In this document: one piece after another, positions 1,266 to 19,403 of the stretch
How positions within the stretch are numbered: position 1 is the first letter of the stretch
How the letters are laid out: each line of letters opens with the position of its first letter
Assembly (NCBI GenBank): GCA_023268595.1
Contig: JALQUD010000004.1
Coordinates: 1-33,560 of the forward strand
Length of the DNA: 33,560 bases
DNA from: Candidatus Saccharimonadia bacterium
GTDB lineage: Bacteria > Patescibacteriota > Saccharimonadia > Saccharimonadales > UBA4665
Direction: 5' to 3'
The notes under the pieces: model-generated
What the model saw: the letters and a program-made list of their open reading frames with translations, nothing else
Told to the model about the DNA's origin: nothing
Databases searched by the model: none
Made by a program: the position numbers and the translations under genes

Positions 1266-3764
1266 CTATGGACCGCCGACCGTCTGCACCGACATCGGCA
1301 TGATGGCATTCTCGCGCCACACGATACCGGACTCGTCCACGCCGCCACCCTCACCCGATGGCGCGGTCACGATCTGCGGATCACAGGCGTCATCCAGCCC
1401 GTCACCATCCGCATCCTTACCGCTATTGACCACTAGGCCACAATCATCTGAACCATCCGGCACCGAATCGCCATCGATATCCCCATCATCACCGATATAC
1501 ACCGTCTGTTGCAGATCGGTCGCCGCACCATATACGGTCTTACCCACCAGATGAACCGTTTGGAAACCGGCTGCCGCGGAAACAGGCAAGGTGACCGAAG
1601 CATTCAGACTGCCGTCAGAGCCGGCCATAGCCGTACCTATCTGTACGCCATTCAGCAACAACCGGTACGTTCCACCGGGTTGCAAGTTGCCCGTTCCAGC
1701 CGGTATGGCCAGTGTGGATGGTCGGCCTATCGTCAGTACCTCCGGAAGCATATCCCCGACCACCTCTACCCTGTTTAAGGCTCGCTGCTCTTTGAGCCTG
1801 CCGACATACAGCGCGTCGGCCGGGTCGGCCGAGATCGTGGCCGTCTGTACGAATGGTTTTGGCATCGGCTTCGTCAGATCGTCAGTCTGTTCGGCTATTA
1901 CCCGCTCCAGCAGACCATGCCCATAGGCCGTAGGATGAAAACTCTCGGACATGTTCCATCGGCTGACCGGCGTCCTGGTCAGTGATATTCCGTTGACCGC
2001 AGGCTTGTTGGCATACGGCTCACACAACCGATGGCCATCAAAGGCCTGGCTGACGTCCACATAAACTACTCCAGCCTGCTCCGCCGCCGTACGTATCACT
2101 TTATTCAGATATGTCGTCAGATCGTAGGCGAACTTGGTTTCGTCGGCGTTGAGCCGCACATTGAGATCACACGCCCCACCCGGTTTGACTATCTGCGGAT
2201 AACCGATGACATATACCCGCCGCCCGTCCAACTTGTTATCTTTCAGCCTGCCGTAGAGATCGCGAAGCTTAGGTAATTGGCGGTCGATAAGGTCGGTCAG
2301 TTCCTTGCGATCCTCGTACGACGAATAACAGGTAAATCCGGAGGCCACATTGCCGGCATGTGACTCGAACGGGTTAACGCAGCGCTTGATGATGTTCGCG
2401 AAGCCGACGTCGTTCCCGCCGATTGACACCGTCACCGCATCCGGGTTGTCCTTGTCGACAAAATCGGCTTGCGCCAGATAACCCGGCAGATGTTCATCCA
2501 GCGCCTTGGTTGAGTCGCCTGAAGAGACTTCACCGTAGATTTGCGAACCCCTGCCATTTGAAGGAGAGATATTTTGTACCTTAGCGCCAGAGCAAGCCAC
2601 GCTAGCGTAGGAAGCCTGCCGCACTCCTAACAGATACGGATATGAATTGGTCGATTGATGGCAGCGGTTCCGCTCGGTATCGGTGCCGGGGCGGTAATTA
2701 GAGGCACCCTCACCGGAAGCGAACGAGTCGCCAAGCGCCACATAAGATTTCAACGACCTCATTTGGCCGTCAGCAGTCAGACTGACCGCCGTGAAGCGTA
2801 GCGGCCCTCCGACCACTTGCCGTCCTATAACCAGAGTCAGCGTGCGGTCATTAGCAAACTGTGCTTTATAGATATTCTTGATGTCCGGGAACATGGTCCG
2901 CAGATTCTGATACACATCCCTTTGCCGACACGCAGCATAATCCGGCGATGGAGAATCCGGAGTCTGTGGTTGGCTGGCATTGCAAGAGTTAATATCCGTG
3001 AACACCGCTCTGCCTTTTGCGGTATCGTATGGATCCACCGCCCCGCTGAAAGCCACCGAACCCCGGTCATTTATAGCCCAGGTCTCGCTCCCGGGGTCAG
3101 TCGAGCCTTTGAAGTATGTAAGCGACGTATCCATCACGCCTATTCGTGTATATCCCTGGGATGTTTTAGCCAGCATATACCGGCCGTTCGATGAGAACCT
3201 GAACATCTCGTTTGAGTACCTGAATTTCACCGATTCGCCATTTGGATGTTTAAAAACCAGATCTGCCATACCATCGGTGACGTTGAAATAATGATTCGGT
3301 GGCAGCCCTTGCAAACTTAAGTGGTTTGATATTTGGAACACCAAACCAAGATATATCCAGTTACCAATGCCTGAAGCACTGAAATAAATTCCGGAAGCCT
3401 GATTGGGCACAGGCTCGACGATAGGATTGCCGCCGCGCCGGTAATCAATCTGATGCGCGTACGGCCACCCTGTTGGTTGTACATAGCCCCAGTTCGTGTA
3501 CAGCTGCGACATCATTCCCATGGCGGTAGGCGTCATGCAAAAGTCGGCCGGCGTACTGCTGTTGACCATCACCTTGGTGTCCACACAGTTCCTAATCGTC
3601 AACACCGGTTGTTGAGTACCGTAATCTTGCTCTGAAACTATAGTCGGCTCTCTAGTGATCCAATCGATGGAGTCATTGGCCGCCGCACCAAATCCAACCA
3701 TCATGGCAGCTGAAGCTGAGGCTAGTACCAGTATTGCAATTGTTATAATTTTTATACGCATCAT
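1266..3764 (-). CDS. Secreted SGNH/GDSL hydrolase with N-terminal beta domain and C-terminal TSP3-like Ca-binding repeats
   Basis: 832 residues. A signal peptide or anchor spans residues 3-29. Residues 40-335 look like an all-beta (propeller-like) region with no recognised family. An SGNH hydrolase domain covers about 340-625: block I ALGDSFASGEG (nucleophile Ser347), block II ACSGAKV, block III GGND (451) and block V SFHPTAYGHG (catalytic His610; the usual Asp two or three residues earlier is not obvious). Such domains are esterases or lipases acting on lipids or acylated sugars. Residues about 665-757 form a beta domain, and 759-795 carry Asp-rich thrombospondin type 3-like calcium motifs (DIDGDSVPDGSDDC, KDADGDGLDDACD). 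Several cysteines suggest disulphides formed outside the membrane, fitting the DsbA-like gene at 15016. Substrate unknown. Secretion is inferred. Confidence 0.85.
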   Translation of the reverse strand: MMRIKIITIAILVLASASAAMMVGFGAAANDSIDWITREPTIVSEQDYGTQQPVLTIRNCVDTKVMVNSSTPADFCMTPTAMGMMSQLYTNWGYVQPTGWPYAHQIDYRRGGNPIVEPVPNQASGIYFSASGIGNWIYLGLVFQISNHLSLQGLPPNHYFNVTDGMADLVFKHPNGESVKFRYSNEMFRFSSNGRYMLAKTSQGYTRIGVMDTSLTYFKGSTDPGSETWAINDRGSVAFSGAVDPYDTAKGRAVFTDINSCNASQPQTPDSPSPDYAACRQRDVYQNLRTMFPDIKNIYKAQFANDRTLTLVIGRQVVGGPLRFTAVSLTADGQMRSLKSYVALGDSFASGEGASNYRPGTDTERNRCHQSTNSYPYLLGVRQASYASVACSGAKVQNISPSNGRGSQIYGEVSSGDSTKALDEHLPGYLAQADFVDKDNPDAVTVSIGGNDVGFANIIKRCVNPFESHAGNVASGFTCYSSYEDRKELTDLIDRQLPKLRDLYGRLKDNKLDGRRVYVIGYPQIVKPGGACDLNVRLNADETKFAYDLTTYLNKVIRTAAEQAGVVYVDVSQAFDGHRLCEPYANKPAVNGISLTRTPVSRWNMSESFHPTAYGHGLLERVIAEQTDDLTKPMPKPFVQTATISADPADALYVGRLKEQRALNRVEVVGDMLPEVLTIGRPSTLAIPAGTGNLQPGGTYRLLLNGVQIGTAMAGSDGSLNASVTLPVSAAAGFQTVHLVGKTVYGAATDLQQTVYIGDDGDIDGDSVPDGSDDCGLVVNSGKDADGDGLDDACDPQIVTAPSGEGGGVDESGIVWRENAIMPMSVQTVGGP

Positions 3765-11018: not shown

Positions 11019-11046
11019 TATAATCACAAGCAGAATATGTGAGGAG
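11019..11046 (+). promoter_or_regulatory. -10 box and Shine-Dalgarno of the beta-helix protein gene
   Basis: Perfect TATAAT (11019-11024); GAGGAG (11041-11046) then lies 7 nt before GTG 11054. An in-frame GTG at 11039 overlaps this ribosome binding site and is therefore rejected as the start. Confidence 0.65.
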
Positions 11047-11053
11047 AAGTTCG

Positions 11054-13423
11054 GTGAGCAGGTTACCAGTACAAGGTGGGGATGAGAACGCGTGGGGATC
11101 GGTGCTCAACGACTTCCTGATGCAGGCACACAACAATGACGGCAGCCTCAAGCCGTCCGGTGTCACCGCCGCCGGGGCGATCACCCAGGACGACGCCGAC
11201 GCCCGCTATCTGACTCCTGGCGCCGCCGATGCTAAATACCTGGACCAGGCAGCCGGCGATGCCCGCTATGTCGAAGGTTCCGGCGTCGGCATGCCCGGTG
11301 GCGTAGCATCGCTGGATGGCACTGGAAAGGTTCCTGCCGCGCAGCTACCAGCCGCTGCCGGTATTCCGGACGCGACCACTACCACCAAGGGTGCCGTACG
11401 CTTGGCCGGCGATCTGGCCGGCAGCGCGGACAGCCCCACCGTACCTGGCCTTTCAGCCAAGGCTTCGACCGCCACCGTCATCAGTGCCGGCACCGGGCTT
11501 ACCGGCGGTGGCGACCTGACCGCCAACCGTAGCCTGGCAGTCGTTTATGGCACTGCCTCCGGGACCGCGGCCGCTGGCAATGACAGCCGGATCATCGGCG
11601 CCATCCAAGCCTCCACAGCCACGACCAAAGGCGACCTGCTGGCCGCCAGCGGTCCTGGTGCAATCACCCGCCTACCCGCCGGCACCAATGGGCAGGTCCT
11701 ATCAGCCGATAGTAGCCAGACATCCGGATTAGCCTGGACCAACCCTGCGGCCGCATCGCTGTCGTATCCTAATAATTCTGGAACCGCCACCGTCACACCA
11801 CGTCTGGCTGTCACCGATGTCCGTGACTACGGCGCCAAAGGCGATAATACGACCGATGACGCAGCCGCCATCAACGCCGCCATCGTAGCAGCGCCGGAAG
11901 GCGGTACGGTTTATTTTCCACCAGGCATATATCTGGTTTCCAGTACCATCCGTCTGCGACCCTACCGCACCTACTCCGGAGGCGGCGGTCTGACCGGCCG
12001 GACAGTCATCAAAGCCACCACCGGACTGACGGACGCCGTCATGGCTTCCGAAGCCTGGTATAGCAACCAGACCACCTGTGATAACCCGATCCGCATCCAG
12101 GGCCTGATGGTCAACGGCAACAACGTCGGTACCAGCGTACGCGGCATCGTGATGCTCAACTTCTGGTCACGCATCACCGACGTCCAGGTCGTCAGCACCA
12201 CCGGCCACGGCATCGAGCTCAACGACACTACCCGTAACGGCACCAACACCATCACCAACAGCGCCAGCGAGAACACCATCACCGCCTGCCGCTTTGATTC
12301 GATTGGCGGCTGTGGCATTTACCAGCGTTCCGGCAACCAGCAGGCCAACCTTGATGGCCGCATCGAGTCATGTTTCTTCTCCACCATCGGCCAATACGGC
12401 ATCCGCTTAGGCCGCGCAGCCGGCTGGTACGTCCAGAACAACCACCTGTACGGCATCGCCTGGGACGCCATCAACACCGACAGCTGTTACGCTACCGTCA
12501 TTACCGACAACTACATCGAAGACTTTGGCGGCGCCAACCAGGCCAACCCCGGGGCGCCGACCTACGGTTACTACAACGGGATTTCGCTCAACACCATCCT
12601 GGACAGCGGCCGGGCAAGCATGGTCAGCGGTAACACCGTGACGAACAACCAGCCTTCCAGTCCCAGTGCCCAGCGCTTTAACTGTCTGTACGCATCAGCT
12701 GGCGGCAGCCAGGCCAAAGCCCGGGTCATCATCACTGGCAACAACTTCGGCTGGGCAAGCACCGGCACGCCGGCTGTCAGCCGCAGCTGGGGCGCCGAAC
12801 TCAGCGCCAACACCGGCGGTTTATTAGAAGTAAGCTGGGGTAGCGGCCAGATCCAGCGCAATGTGAACTGGCAACGGACACTGGTCTACGACCCGACCAA
12901 GGTCAATCTGATCGAGTCTGCCGGTAACGTCCAACGGCCATTTACCGGCTGGACTGCCGACCCCGCCAATGCGTCGGGCAGCAACAGCCTGACACTGACG
13001 CCCGGTACGGTCTACGTCATGGAAGCGGAGGTCAAGGCCGGTCGGGTCTCGACCATCGATTTCAGCCTTTCAGCCGGCGGCTCGGGTATAACCGGTGGTT
13101 ACATCGGCCTGTACGACCTGGACCGCAGCCGTCTGGGCACGTCATCCAACGTCAGCGGTGCTTTCGCGGCCTCGGGCACCAAGTCGGTCAACCTCAGCAC
13201 GCCGGTAGCTGTCAGCGACGGCAAGTATTACATCGCCTTCCTGGTCGTCGGTTCATCCGGACCATCCATACAATCGTCGGCAGACCTAGGTATCGCCAAC
13301 CTCGGCCGCAGTATCGCACCATATCGCTCGGCGACCGCCGACACCGGCCAGTCCAGCCTGCCGGCCAGCCTGAGCAGCACCCAGACGGCCATCGGCCAAC
13401 TACCGTTCGCAGTCATGCGCTAA
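11054..13423 (+). CDS. Tail-spike-like right-handed beta-helix protein (pectate lyase 3 / GH28-related)
   Basis: 789 residues from GTG 11054. The N-terminus SRLPVQGGDENAWGSVLNDFLMQAHN has no signal peptide or membrane helix. Residues about 40-245 are low-complexity Gly/Ala/Thr-rich repeats like phage tail fibres (two DARYL/DARYV-type units, TGLTGGGDLTANRSLAV). A pectate-lyase-3 superfamily beta-helix follows, opening with VRDYGAKGDNTTDDAAAINAAI and EGGTVYFPPGIYLVSSTI, then many N/G/T-rich rungs. The last 170 residues form a separate beta-sandwich-like domain (LIESAGNVQRPFTGW...). The fold suggests binding or cleaving polysaccharide, as in phage tail spikes. No phage structural genes are nearby. 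Export route unknown. Terminates 15 bp before the convergent CBS-lysozyme gene. Confidence 0.8.
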   Translation: MSRLPVQGGDENAWGSVLNDFLMQAHNNDGSLKPSGVTAAGAITQDDADARYLTPGAADAKYLDQAAGDARYVEGSGVGMPGGVASLDGTGKVPAAQLPAAAGIPDATTTTKGAVRLAGDLAGSADSPTVPGLSAKASTATVISAGTGLTGGGDLTANRSLAVVYGTASGTAAAGNDSRIIGAIQASTATTKGDLLAASGPGAITRLPAGTNGQVLSADSSQTSGLAWTNPAAASLSYPNNSGTATVTPRLAVTDVRDYGAKGDNTTDDAAAINAAIVAAPEGGTVYFPPGIYLVSSTIRLRPYRTYSGGGGLTGRTVIKATTGLTDAVMASEAWYSNQTTCDNPIRIQGLMVNGNNVGTSVRGIVMLNFWSRITDVQVVSTTGHGIELNDTTRNGTNTITNSASENTITACRFDSIGGCGIYQRSGNQQANLDGRIESCFFSTIGQYGIRLGRAAGWYVQNNHLYGIAWDAINTDSCYATVITDNYIEDFGGANQANPGAPTYGYYNGISLNTILDSGRASMVSGNTVTNNQPSSPSAQRFNCLYASAGGSQAKARVIITGNNFGWASTGTPAVSRSWGAELSANTGGLLEVSWGSGQIQRNVNWQRTLVYDPTKVNLIESAGNVQRPFTGWTADPANASGSNSLTLTPGTVYVMEAEVKAGRVSTIDFSLSAGGSGITGGYIGLYDLDRSRLGTSSNVSGAFAASGTKSVNLSTPVAVSDGKYYIAFLVVGSSGPSIQSSADLGIANLGRSIAPYRSATADTGQSSLPASLSSTQTAIGQLPFAVMR

Positions 13424-13438: not shown

Positions 13439-14911
13439 TCACTTCAGTTTATGGTTGGCTTTCTTGTCGAAGTACTTCTTATAAGTACCGTTATTGAACA
13501 TCGTCCATGGTTTCCAGTCTTTGCCACCGTCTGACAATCCGAAGGCCACACGTGCATTGGTCAGCGGGTCGAACAGCTCGGCATTGTCCTTTAGCCCGTA
13601 CAGCTTGCGTCGCTCCGGGCCCATGTCACCAAGCATGTTGATCTGGAACAGGCCGTACGAGTCGTCACCGGTCGAAGCATCGTCATTATGGGCCTTCACT
13701 TTGGCGGATGACTCAGCCAGCGCGACCGAGAAAGCTATTTCGAGTGCTTCTCCGCGGAAACCGGCTTCGTAAATGACATGTTTGAGCGTGGCTACCGGAT
13801 ACGGGTTTTCGGGCTTAGCCTCCTCGGCAGGCTTGTCGAATACAGGATGTTGCACGGCTTCGGCTCCTTTTTTCTTACGGGCGTCATGGGCAATCTTGGC
13901 GTTATGCGCCGCCACGGCACGCACATCATCGTACTGGTCGAACTCATCGACGATCTTGCAGCCGATGACTTGCTCCAGAATATCCTCGACGGTGATGATA
14001 CCCACGAATTCCTCGAAGTCATTGACCACTACGAACAGATGGTGATGTGTCTTGATGAAAGCGTCCAATACCTGCTCCAGCGGATGGTCCTCATGAACGA
14101 AGTATGTGGTGGCATGCATCGCCTCCCGGGCAGTCCCCGTCTTCTTGAGCGTCACCAGATCACGCAGATACAGCAGCCCGACGATACCACCGGTGCCATC
14201 GTCGCTCTTATCATCGAAACCTTGCCCGGCGTAGACCGGGAAGCGTGAATGCCCGCTCTTATGCAGCTCATCTATCAGCGCCGGCGTCACCGACTGGTCG
14301 GCTGCCACGGCATTGACCGCCCGGCGTGGCACCATACAGTCGCGCACCAGCTTGTCACCGAACGTCAGCGCGTGGGCCAGCAGGTCCAGGGTTTCGGTAG
14401 AAATACGGCTGTCCGGCTGGTGTTTCTGAGCCTCGATGACATTCAACAGGTCATCGCGGTCATACAAACCGGTATGCACGGTAATGGGACGATGCTTACG
14501 TACGAATCGCACCAGTTTGTCGACCAGAGGATGTAACCGGTCCATCACCCACACGACTGCCGGGGTCACGAATACCGCTACGCGCATACCGACCTTGGTA
14601 GCCTTGTGCGCCGGCATCCACACGAAACCATAGGCCAAGGTGGCCGCCACCAATAAGAAAGCCAGGAACGCCGGTGCGACCTCTTCCAGCAGATGGAAGC
14701 TACCGGCCGCCGACAGGACGATGACCACCCACAGCACGGCACGCAGGCTGGCGCCGTATGAAGCGGCACGGAATAGCACGCTGGCGATCGGATCCTGGGT
14801 CCGCGCCCGGTGCTTCAGCTCCTTGACCGATAATGAGGCGTAAGTTTTTTGCAGCGCCATGGCCAAAAGAGCGAGCGCCAACAATAGAAGTGCGAAGAGA
14901 TATGTAGTCAT
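13439..14911 (-). CDS. CNNM/CorC-like CBS-domain membrane protein fused to a C-terminal lysozyme-like (SLT) domain
   Basis: 490 residues, one uninterrupted frame. Hydrophobic helices lie at about 3-20, 57-75, 80-98 and 108-124, resembling a reduced DUF21/CNNM region. A CBS pair follows: LVRDCMVPRRAVNAVAADQSV (about 188-258) and about 264-318 with FVVVNDFEEFVGIITVEDILEQVIG, the hallmark of HlyC/CorC proteins. A charged linker (about 325-370) leads to a lysozyme-like domain: ALAESSAKVKAHNDD with probable catalytic Glu400, SYGLFQINMLGDMG, FDPLTNARVAFGLS and WTMFNNGTYKKY. CBS domains are cytoplasmic in this family and no helix separates them from the glycosidase-like domain, so topology is puzzling. 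It lacks the usual CorC_HlyC domain. Leaderless promoter at 14918-14926. Confidence 0.82.
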   Translation of the reverse strand: MTTYLFALLLLALALLAMALQKTYASLSVKELKHRARTQDPIASVLFRAASYGASLRAVLWVVIVLSAAGSFHLLEEVAPAFLAFLLVAATLAYGFVWMPAHKATKVGMRVAVFVTPAVVWVMDRLHPLVDKLVRFVRKHRPITVHTGLYDRDDLLNVIEAQKHQPDSRISTETLDLLAHALTFGDKLVRDCMVPRRAVNAVAADQSVTPALIDELHKSGHSRFPVYAGQGFDDKSDDGTGGIVGLLYLRDLVTLKKTGTAREAMHATTYFVHEDHPLEQVLDAFIKTHHHLFVVVNDFEEFVGIITVEDILEQVIGCKIVDEFDQYDDVRAVAAHNAKIAHDARKKKGAEAVQHPVFDKPAEEAKPENPYPVATLKHVIYEAGFRGEALEIAFSVALAESSAKVKAHNDDASTGDDSYGLFQINMLGDMGPERRKLYGLKDNAELFDPLTNARVAFGLSDGGKDWKPWTMFNNGTYKKYFDKKANHKLK

Positions 14912-17957: not shown

Positions 17958-19403
17958 CTACGCGGCGCTCGGCGCACAGCCTATTATTTCGTAGGATCCT
18001 TGCCGGCGTCGAACATCGCCTGGCAGCGGCTGATACACACACCGCATGGTCCGACCTTGGTCTCGTTGGGACCAGCCCTTGCGCTCCGCCCGGGCCATGG
18101 CTGCGGCAGCTGATACGTCAGCCGTGCTTGCCGCTCCATCGCGGCGGTTTTCCGATTCATCACTGCCACCACTGGCGCACGACGAAGTCTTCTCGGTGCT
18201 GCGTGCCCGGTCGAGCGCCAACCGGAAACTATCCATGTCGCCGAGTTCCAGCATACGGCGGGCCTTGATGATGTGTTGGGCCGATTCCGAGCCGAAGATC
18301 CGGACATCGATCGAGCGGTCGGATATCGCCCGGTTCACTAATGCTTGCCCGGACAGATGGGCCAGGCGCTTGATGGCAGCCACCGGCGTTTCCAAGTCCG
18401 GCGCCGACTGCAACAGCTCGTCGACGATGGCTTCGACGAGCGGCTCCAGATCAGCTTCCCGTTCAAAACACTTCTGGCGGTATTCCAGATATTCCTGCCG
18501 GCTACGTTGGTACGCCAAGCCACGACGGTATTCACCGAAGAACGTGCCACCGGCGGCCTCGTCATAACGGTCCACCAGGCTTACCACGCCGTCAGGCATC
18601 TGGGCCCGCGGAACCAACACCGGCATATCCAGCAGATCGGTAGCGCTCATCCCGGCAGACGTCTCGACACCCAACCCAGTCAACATATCACGGATAGTCT
18701 TCTGGTCGTGCCGTTCGCCACCAGCCACGGCCACGCCCGACACGAACGCCGACTCCTGGACCAATGTGCCGTCACGGTAACCGACGACCTGGAGCGCGCA
18801 CGACATCGTCTCGGTAAAGAAACCGCAATCGCGCATCGCGTCCAATGACATGTCATCGGCGCTGCGCGATATGACCACCACATCATAATTTTCCAGCAGT
18901 CCGCTTCGCAGATATTCTTCTATACGCATACCGTTGCGGGTCTCAGCCTCGCTGCGGCGCCGCATCTGGCGTTGTGCCGAGGCGTAGCGCAGGCCATTAA
19001 TAAAGACGTCTTCCATCGACTGGCCATACTGGCCTAGCCTGCCATCGGCACCGACTTCCAACTCCACCTGGGTGATATGGCCGGATTTGATGGACCGCTC
19101 GACCACATCGGTCCGGACGTTATTAGCTACCGCCAGGCGCGCTTCGGTATCACCTTCGGCAGCCCGTCCGATCAGTTCGGCCAGGTTGACGGCCCCCGTC
19201 TGAGTGCGCTCCTGGGAGACATCGTCGCGGACAGACTCATCAGGCCCCACCTCAACCGTAGCGGCCACCACGGCACGGCCGGCTGAGTCCGCGATGTCCA
19301 TCAACCGCCGGGCACGCTCCCACGCGACATCCTCCCACTCGAACATGTGTGCCGGTATGGCCTGCAAACCCTCAGACTGCCCGAACGTCGTGGCTGAAGC
19401 CAT
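17958..19403 (-). CDS. Unknown protein, probably frameshifted near its C-terminus
   Basis: 481 residues as read, soluble, mostly alpha-helical, Arg/Glu/Asp-rich; no family recognised. Residues about 1-400 look well conserved in style (balanced composition, e.g. the VEVGPDESVRDDVSQERTQ and DVVVISRSADDMSLDAM segments). After about residue 440 the frame becomes Arg-rich and unconvincing. The next frame of the same DNA gives VGPCGVCISRCQAMFDAGKD, with a C-x2-C-x3-C zinc-type motif, and stops at TAA 17984-17986. An indel around 18060-18100 would join them, so the real gene may be 17984-19403. No Shine-Dalgarno. Function unknown. Confidence 0.6.
   Translation of the reverse strand: MASATTFGQSEGLQAIPAHMFEWEDVAWERARRLMDIADSAGRAVVAATVEVGPDESVRDDVSQERTQTGAVNLAELIGRAAEGDTEARLAVANNVRTDVVERSIKSGHITQVELEVGADGRLGQYGQSMEDVFINGLRYASAQRQMRRRSEAETRNGMRIEEYLRSGLLENYDVVVISRSADDMSLDAMRDCGFFTETMSCALQVVGYRDGTLVQESAFVSGVAVAGGERHDQKTIRDMLTGLGVETSAGMSATDLLDMPVLVPRAQMPDGVVSLVDRYDEAAGGTFFGEYRRGLAYQRSRQEYLEYRQKCFEREADLEPLVEAIVDELLQSAPDLETPVAAIKRLAHLSGQALVNRAISDRSIDVRIFGSESAQHIIKARRMLELGDMDSFRLALDRARSTEKTSSCASGGSDESENRRDGAASTADVSAAAAMARAERKGWSQRDQGRTMRCVYQPLPGDVRRRQGSYEIIGCAPSAA

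Follow-up and report, generated by a model that had tools for sequence, protein, structure and literature searches.

The closest described systems to the gene studied here are the prokaryotic CorB and CorC proteins (MtCorB, PDB 7m1t; CorC, PDB 4hg0), in which a membrane domain is followed by a juxtamembrane helix and a pair of CBS domains, the latter being cytosolic in the published CorB topology (PMC8242095). A second point of reference is the SLT_3 domain (PF18896), which is found in phage virion proteins and lysins, e.g. in Streptomyces phage WheeHeim, or behind an apparent signal peptide. Our literature search for a fusion of CBS domains with a lytic transglycosylase yielded nothing relevant. 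In the window (the whole stretch of 33,560 nucleotides that was analysed), a single gene carries both types of domain. It appears to share with CorB and CorC the order of membrane domain, juxtamembrane helix and CBS pair, but where canonical prokaryotic CorB has a C-terminal CorC domain, it carries an SLT domain instead.

ORF translation yielded one uninterrupted frame of 490 codons, of which the membrane part and the CBS pair span aa 1-345 (Table 1). Pfam recognised the CBS pair (PF00571, E = 3.9e-14) and, in the same chain, SLT_3 at aa 379-470 (E = 8.4e-21), with a profile score of 74.7 bits that lies above the curated cut-off of 27. Codon use was even across the join (0.64 for the SLT part, 0.65 for the CNNM part), indicating that the SLT part is an ordinary translated piece. 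The gene looks like a conserved host membrane protein that carries a phage-type lysozyme domain at its C-terminus, as the result of a singleton capture.

Table 1. Positions of the fusion gene, its parts and the adjacent tailspike-like gene in the window.
Feature	Coordinates	Strand	Basis
Whole fusion gene, 490 aa	13439..14911	-	Single open frame, Pfam
Degenerate CNNM/CorB (DUF21-like) membrane domain, aa 1-103, three predicted membrane helices	14603..14911	-	Hydropathy, profile homology from aa 58, loop charges
Juxtamembrane helix, aa 104-126; by charge and homology no fourth membrane helix	14534..14602	-	
CBS pair, aa 186-316	13964..14356	-	Pfam and PDB homology
Charged tail and linker, aa 330-373	13793..13924	-	Low model confidence
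SLT_3/lysozyme-like domain, phage type, aa 376-480	13472..13786	-	Pfam, homology, predicted fold
Glu400, predicted catalytic acid	13712..13714	-	Invariant in 71 aligned sequences
Candidate internal translation start: AGGAG, 8 nt, GTG (codon 353)	13853..13868	-	Sequence only
Convergent tailspike-like gene at a distance of 15 bp from the stop of the fusion; pectate-lyase fold, matches to phage tail PHROGs	11039..13423	+	

Comparison of the protein with PDB sequences returned CorC (4hg0, 7.5e-17) and MtCorB (7m1t, 9.4e-16), with human CNNM proteins also among the matches, and a family profile matched CNNM4 (11gq) at 2e-29 and MtCorB at 4e-28. The profile alignment starts inside the membrane domain (alignment position 61 for 7m1t), continues along the juxtamembrane helix and extends into the CBS pair. 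The canonical Pfam models DUF21 and CorC_HlyC did not match the fusion protein. As in CorB and CorC, the nucleotide-contact residues of the CBS pair are kept, namely the Mg-ATP-binding motifs SR (aa 222-223) and T-x-x-D (aa 308-311). Unlike MtCorB, the protein has lost the two serines of TM1 and the S-E-x-x-P-K transport turn, except for the proline (Pro100). Most Mg-transport residues of MtCorB are missing throughout the family (S26 and S30 of TM1, S117, E118 and K122), a comparison that was made by eye for TM1, which precedes the start of the profile alignment, and in which N76 of MtCorB lies outside the mapping. Given this loss, we take the short CNNM-like family to act probably as a sensor or scaffold rather than as a transporter. 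The same genome encodes a second CNNM-like protein in a frame of 454 aa (G000:C126, L002).

To orient the chain in the membrane, hydropathy was read together with homology and charge. Three segments are strongly hydrophobic (aa 1-30, 48-80 and 70-102), and aa 104-126 form a fourth, less hydrophobic one; after aa 150, no segment reached the level of a membrane helix. The pattern fits three membrane helices and a juxtamembrane helix, and profile homology to CNNM4 and MtCorB covers the region from TM2 to the juxtamembrane helix. The charge is +5 for loop 1 (mean of 20 family members: +5.2), -2 for loop 2 (mean: 0.15) and +4 for the residues that follow the juxtamembrane helix (mean: +2.25). By CNNM4/CorB homology and the positive-inside distribution of charges, the CBS pair and the SLT domain are thus both predicted to be cytosolic.

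An earlier note on this DNA, made from the letters and the open reading frames, had described a CNNM/CorC-like N-terminus with two CBS domains, followed in the same frame by a transglycosylase-type domain (Glu400, SYGLFQIN, FDPLTNA) with no helix in between. The Pfam and PDB matches, the motifs and the hydropathy bear out each of these statements. Its four N-terminal helices are replaced by three membrane helices and a juxtamembrane helix on the grounds of charge and homology. An origin from the Patescibacteria, as named in the note, would agree with the small size of the genome (1.12 Mb at about 86% completeness). Of the contradictory topology to which it drew attention, the cytosolic position of the lysozyme domain stands, as judged by homology and charges; the cytosolic job that it considered for this domain found no support in partner genes or in signs of coupling.

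The lysozyme-like domain appears intact in sequence and in predicted fold. Glu400 and Ser401 were identical in all 71 aligned sequences, and the SYGLFQIN and DP-TNA motifs are present. AlphaFold predicted a lysozyme fold for the SLT domain (pLDDT 90.4), so that the refuting outcome named in the earlier note, a predicted structure without this fold, did not occur, and Foldseek matched it to solved C-type lysozymes with a probability of 1.0 and a TM score of about 0.67, albeit with E-values of only 0.01-0.2. In the full-chain model the linker was of low confidence and free of long helices, and the CBS part reached a pLDDT of 59, a poor value because no alignment of CNNM relatives was supplied; as the model was built on SLT rows only, it is uninformative on contacts between the CBS and SLT parts.

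Virus contigs contained the closest relatives of the SLT piece, with up to 61% identity, followed by Streptomyces phages (53%) and by weaker relatives in Rhodococcus, Gordonia and cyanobacterial phages. The likeness to the best of these (53-61% identity) extends over the whole domain, including the catalytic glutamate and SYGLFQIN. The phage and virus proteins match tape-measure, peptidase or endolysin PHROGs or families of unknown function, and in many of them the SLT domain lies at the N-terminus of the open frame. The setting differs: in its relatives the domain is part of virion proteins or lysins or is preceded by an apparent signal peptide, whereas here it follows a CBS pair that is predicted to be cytosolic. 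By homology and charge, the catalytic domain is likewise predicted to be cytosolic and not exported. No CNNM relatives were found in the virus contigs.

Among cellular genomes, the SLT piece was found in this genome only, i.e. in one of 93 genomes of the family, one of 198 of the order and one of 380 of the phylum (overlapping samples), and the SLT_3 match is unique within its own genome. The same fusion was seen in no other genome of the three samples, and a scan of genome contigs with the full-length protein as query returned no relative. Other genomes of the class carry SLT_3 in open frames of 130-206 aa, which are too short to include a CNNM part. A donor among these standalone genes was rejected, those detected by BLAST being at most about 30% identical. 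The fusion was also absent from 12 loci of named genomes, all of which encode signal-peptide/LysM-SLT or phage-like proteins; in the Riflebacteria relatives, SLT_3 stands behind an apparent signal peptide, often together with LysM, as read by eye. Riflebacteria/Ozemobacter genomes (L127, L129, L130) contain two adjoining SLT_3 genes, several of them with an apparent signal peptide or LysM.

The CNNM part shows the opposite distribution: of the 60 related genomes, 56 have a match to it with an E-value of 1e-8 or lower, and none of these matches includes the SLT part. The best relatives of aa 1-345 are 38-54% identical, and their chains or alignments stop at a position matching aa 340-370, in the charged tail. 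These short CNNM-like proteins, of about 350 aa in the related genomes, resemble the fusion over aa 1-345 and in gene neighbourhood, but end within or just after the charged tail, without SLT. As regards two separate genes in homologues, which the earlier note had named as a refutation, relatives do have the CNNM gene alone, but there is no SLT gene beside it. The neighbours shared with relatives are a class II tRNA synthetase and, across the CNNM gene from it, a DsbA-like gene. Between the CNNM and synthetase matches, a gap of 22-53 bp was measured in relatives L147 and L141, and in L149 and L150 this gap holds a RecG-like helicase (named by eye from sequence) or other genes; in the window it is occupied by the tailspike-like gene, which was absent at this place from the relatives examined. 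The extra material of the locus is therefore the SLT part plus the tailspike-like gene, with matching flanks on both sides, and at the edges of this segment only short, chance-like repeats were found.

Further observations concern other genes of the window. Of the 93 family genomes, 22 match the tailspike-like protein in some part. Its N-terminal module, LPVQGGDENAWGSVLNDFL..., recurs in frames of very different lengths, often several times per genome, and may be an anchor of surface or phage-tail type that these proteins share. A 481-aa protein (17958-19403, minus strand) without Pfam, NCBIfam or PHROG match is conserved in synteny near the same locus in several relatives, and an 832-aa protein (1266-3764, minus strand) contains a GDSL lipase/acylhydrolase domain.

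With moderate confidence, we favour a singleton, lineage-specific capture of a phage-type SLT_3 domain at the C-terminus of a CNNM-like protein of normal orientation, the lysozyme being an idle cytosolic passenger. A conserved CNNM/CorB-like protein would have gained the domain in this lineage only; its membrane part would keep the usual CNNM orientation, and the CBS pair and the lysozyme would end up in the cytosol. There the lysozyme domain, intact in sequence, would find no peptidoglycan polymer as a substrate. Most likely, the protein keeps its ancestral CBS job, with the lysozyme as a tethered passenger that would be active only on lysis or if released. We infer the membrane orientation, the capture from phage and the lack of activity in place. 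Two findings speak against this reading. The active site is intact, both at Glu400 and over its whole stretch, which suggests a domain that either was gained very recently or has some function. Moreover, the other SLT_3 relatives found in bacteria follow apparent signal peptides, in many cases with LysM, so that a cytosolic copy looks out of place. With one carrier genome, selection on the fusion is not measurable, and a recent accident of domain capture is the more likely.

The captured domain may also be made as a separate product. Of the 404 internal in-frame start codons in the genes of the window, only 3 have an AGGAG site just before them. One of the three is codon 353, right where the conserved tail gives way to the SLT domain. 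Translation from GTG353 would give the SLT domain as a free protein of 138 aa that lacks a signal peptide; alternatively, the site may be the remnant of a once separate gene. Two products, the fusion and an endolysin-like free lysozyme that leaves the cell by lysis or another route, would agree with the rarity and placement of the site, with the GGAG-type sites of several other window genes and with the N-terminal position of SLT in many phage frames. We nevertheless consider this unlikely, as the AGGAG is part of AAA-AAA-GGA codons in a charged tail that contains lysine and is common to relatives, so that the site may have arisen by chance, and as no holin or export route was identified.

The same internal start, which has a good ribosome site and lies at the expected beginning of a separate gene, could reflect a sequencing or assembly error, by which a missed stop or a one-base slip joins a normal CNNM gene to a separate phage-derived SLT gene. 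Such an error would also account for a fusion seen in no other genome searched, and the source is a fragmented single genome (174 contigs, 1.12 Mb, about 86% complete). The linker frame has no stop, though, and codon use does not change at the join. Synteny of both flanks with relatives makes a chimeric contig unlikely and largely rejects a gross chimera; an error of a single base is possible. Overall, we judge an artefact of this kind distinctly unlikely.

Two further explanations give the lysozyme a role inside the cell. We allow a small chance that a membrane-bound CBS (Mg-ATP) sensor holds or releases an active cytosolic lysozyme, for instance a stored lysin that would be freed by internal initiation, proteolysis or lysis in a small, possibly epibiotic bacterium. 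Very little credence is given to a purposeful cytosolic enzyme that would act on lipid-linked precursors, imported muropeptides or incoming phage or host material, with the CBS (Mg-ATP) state as its switch: the intact active-site residues and the conserved nucleotide-contact motifs would suit it, but lytic transglycosylases act on polymer, no relative has the fusion, no partner genes hint at such a function and the low-confidence linker gives no sign of coupling. Finally, an inverted or four-helix protein with CBS pair and lysozyme outside, i.e. the nucleotide- or ion-gated cell-wall enzyme raised in the earlier note, is barely credible, since the moderately hydrophobic fourth stretch that suggests it (aa 104-126) aligns with CNNM juxtamembrane helices and precedes a positive run, the charges of the fusion and of 19 relatives place loop 1 on the cytosolic side, all relatives searched lack the fusion and nothing links the CBS state to SLT.

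Capture of a phage-type domain as a cytosolic passenger thus remains our preferred reading. The locus clearly exemplifies the joining of a phage-type enzyme domain to a conserved host membrane sensor; what makes it unusual is that the enzyme would lie on the wrong side of the membrane. We know of no earlier lead to a cytosolic or releasable lysozyme on a CNNM-type sensor; if the domain is kept by selection, it would provide a lead to a lysozyme of this kind, tied to such a sensor.
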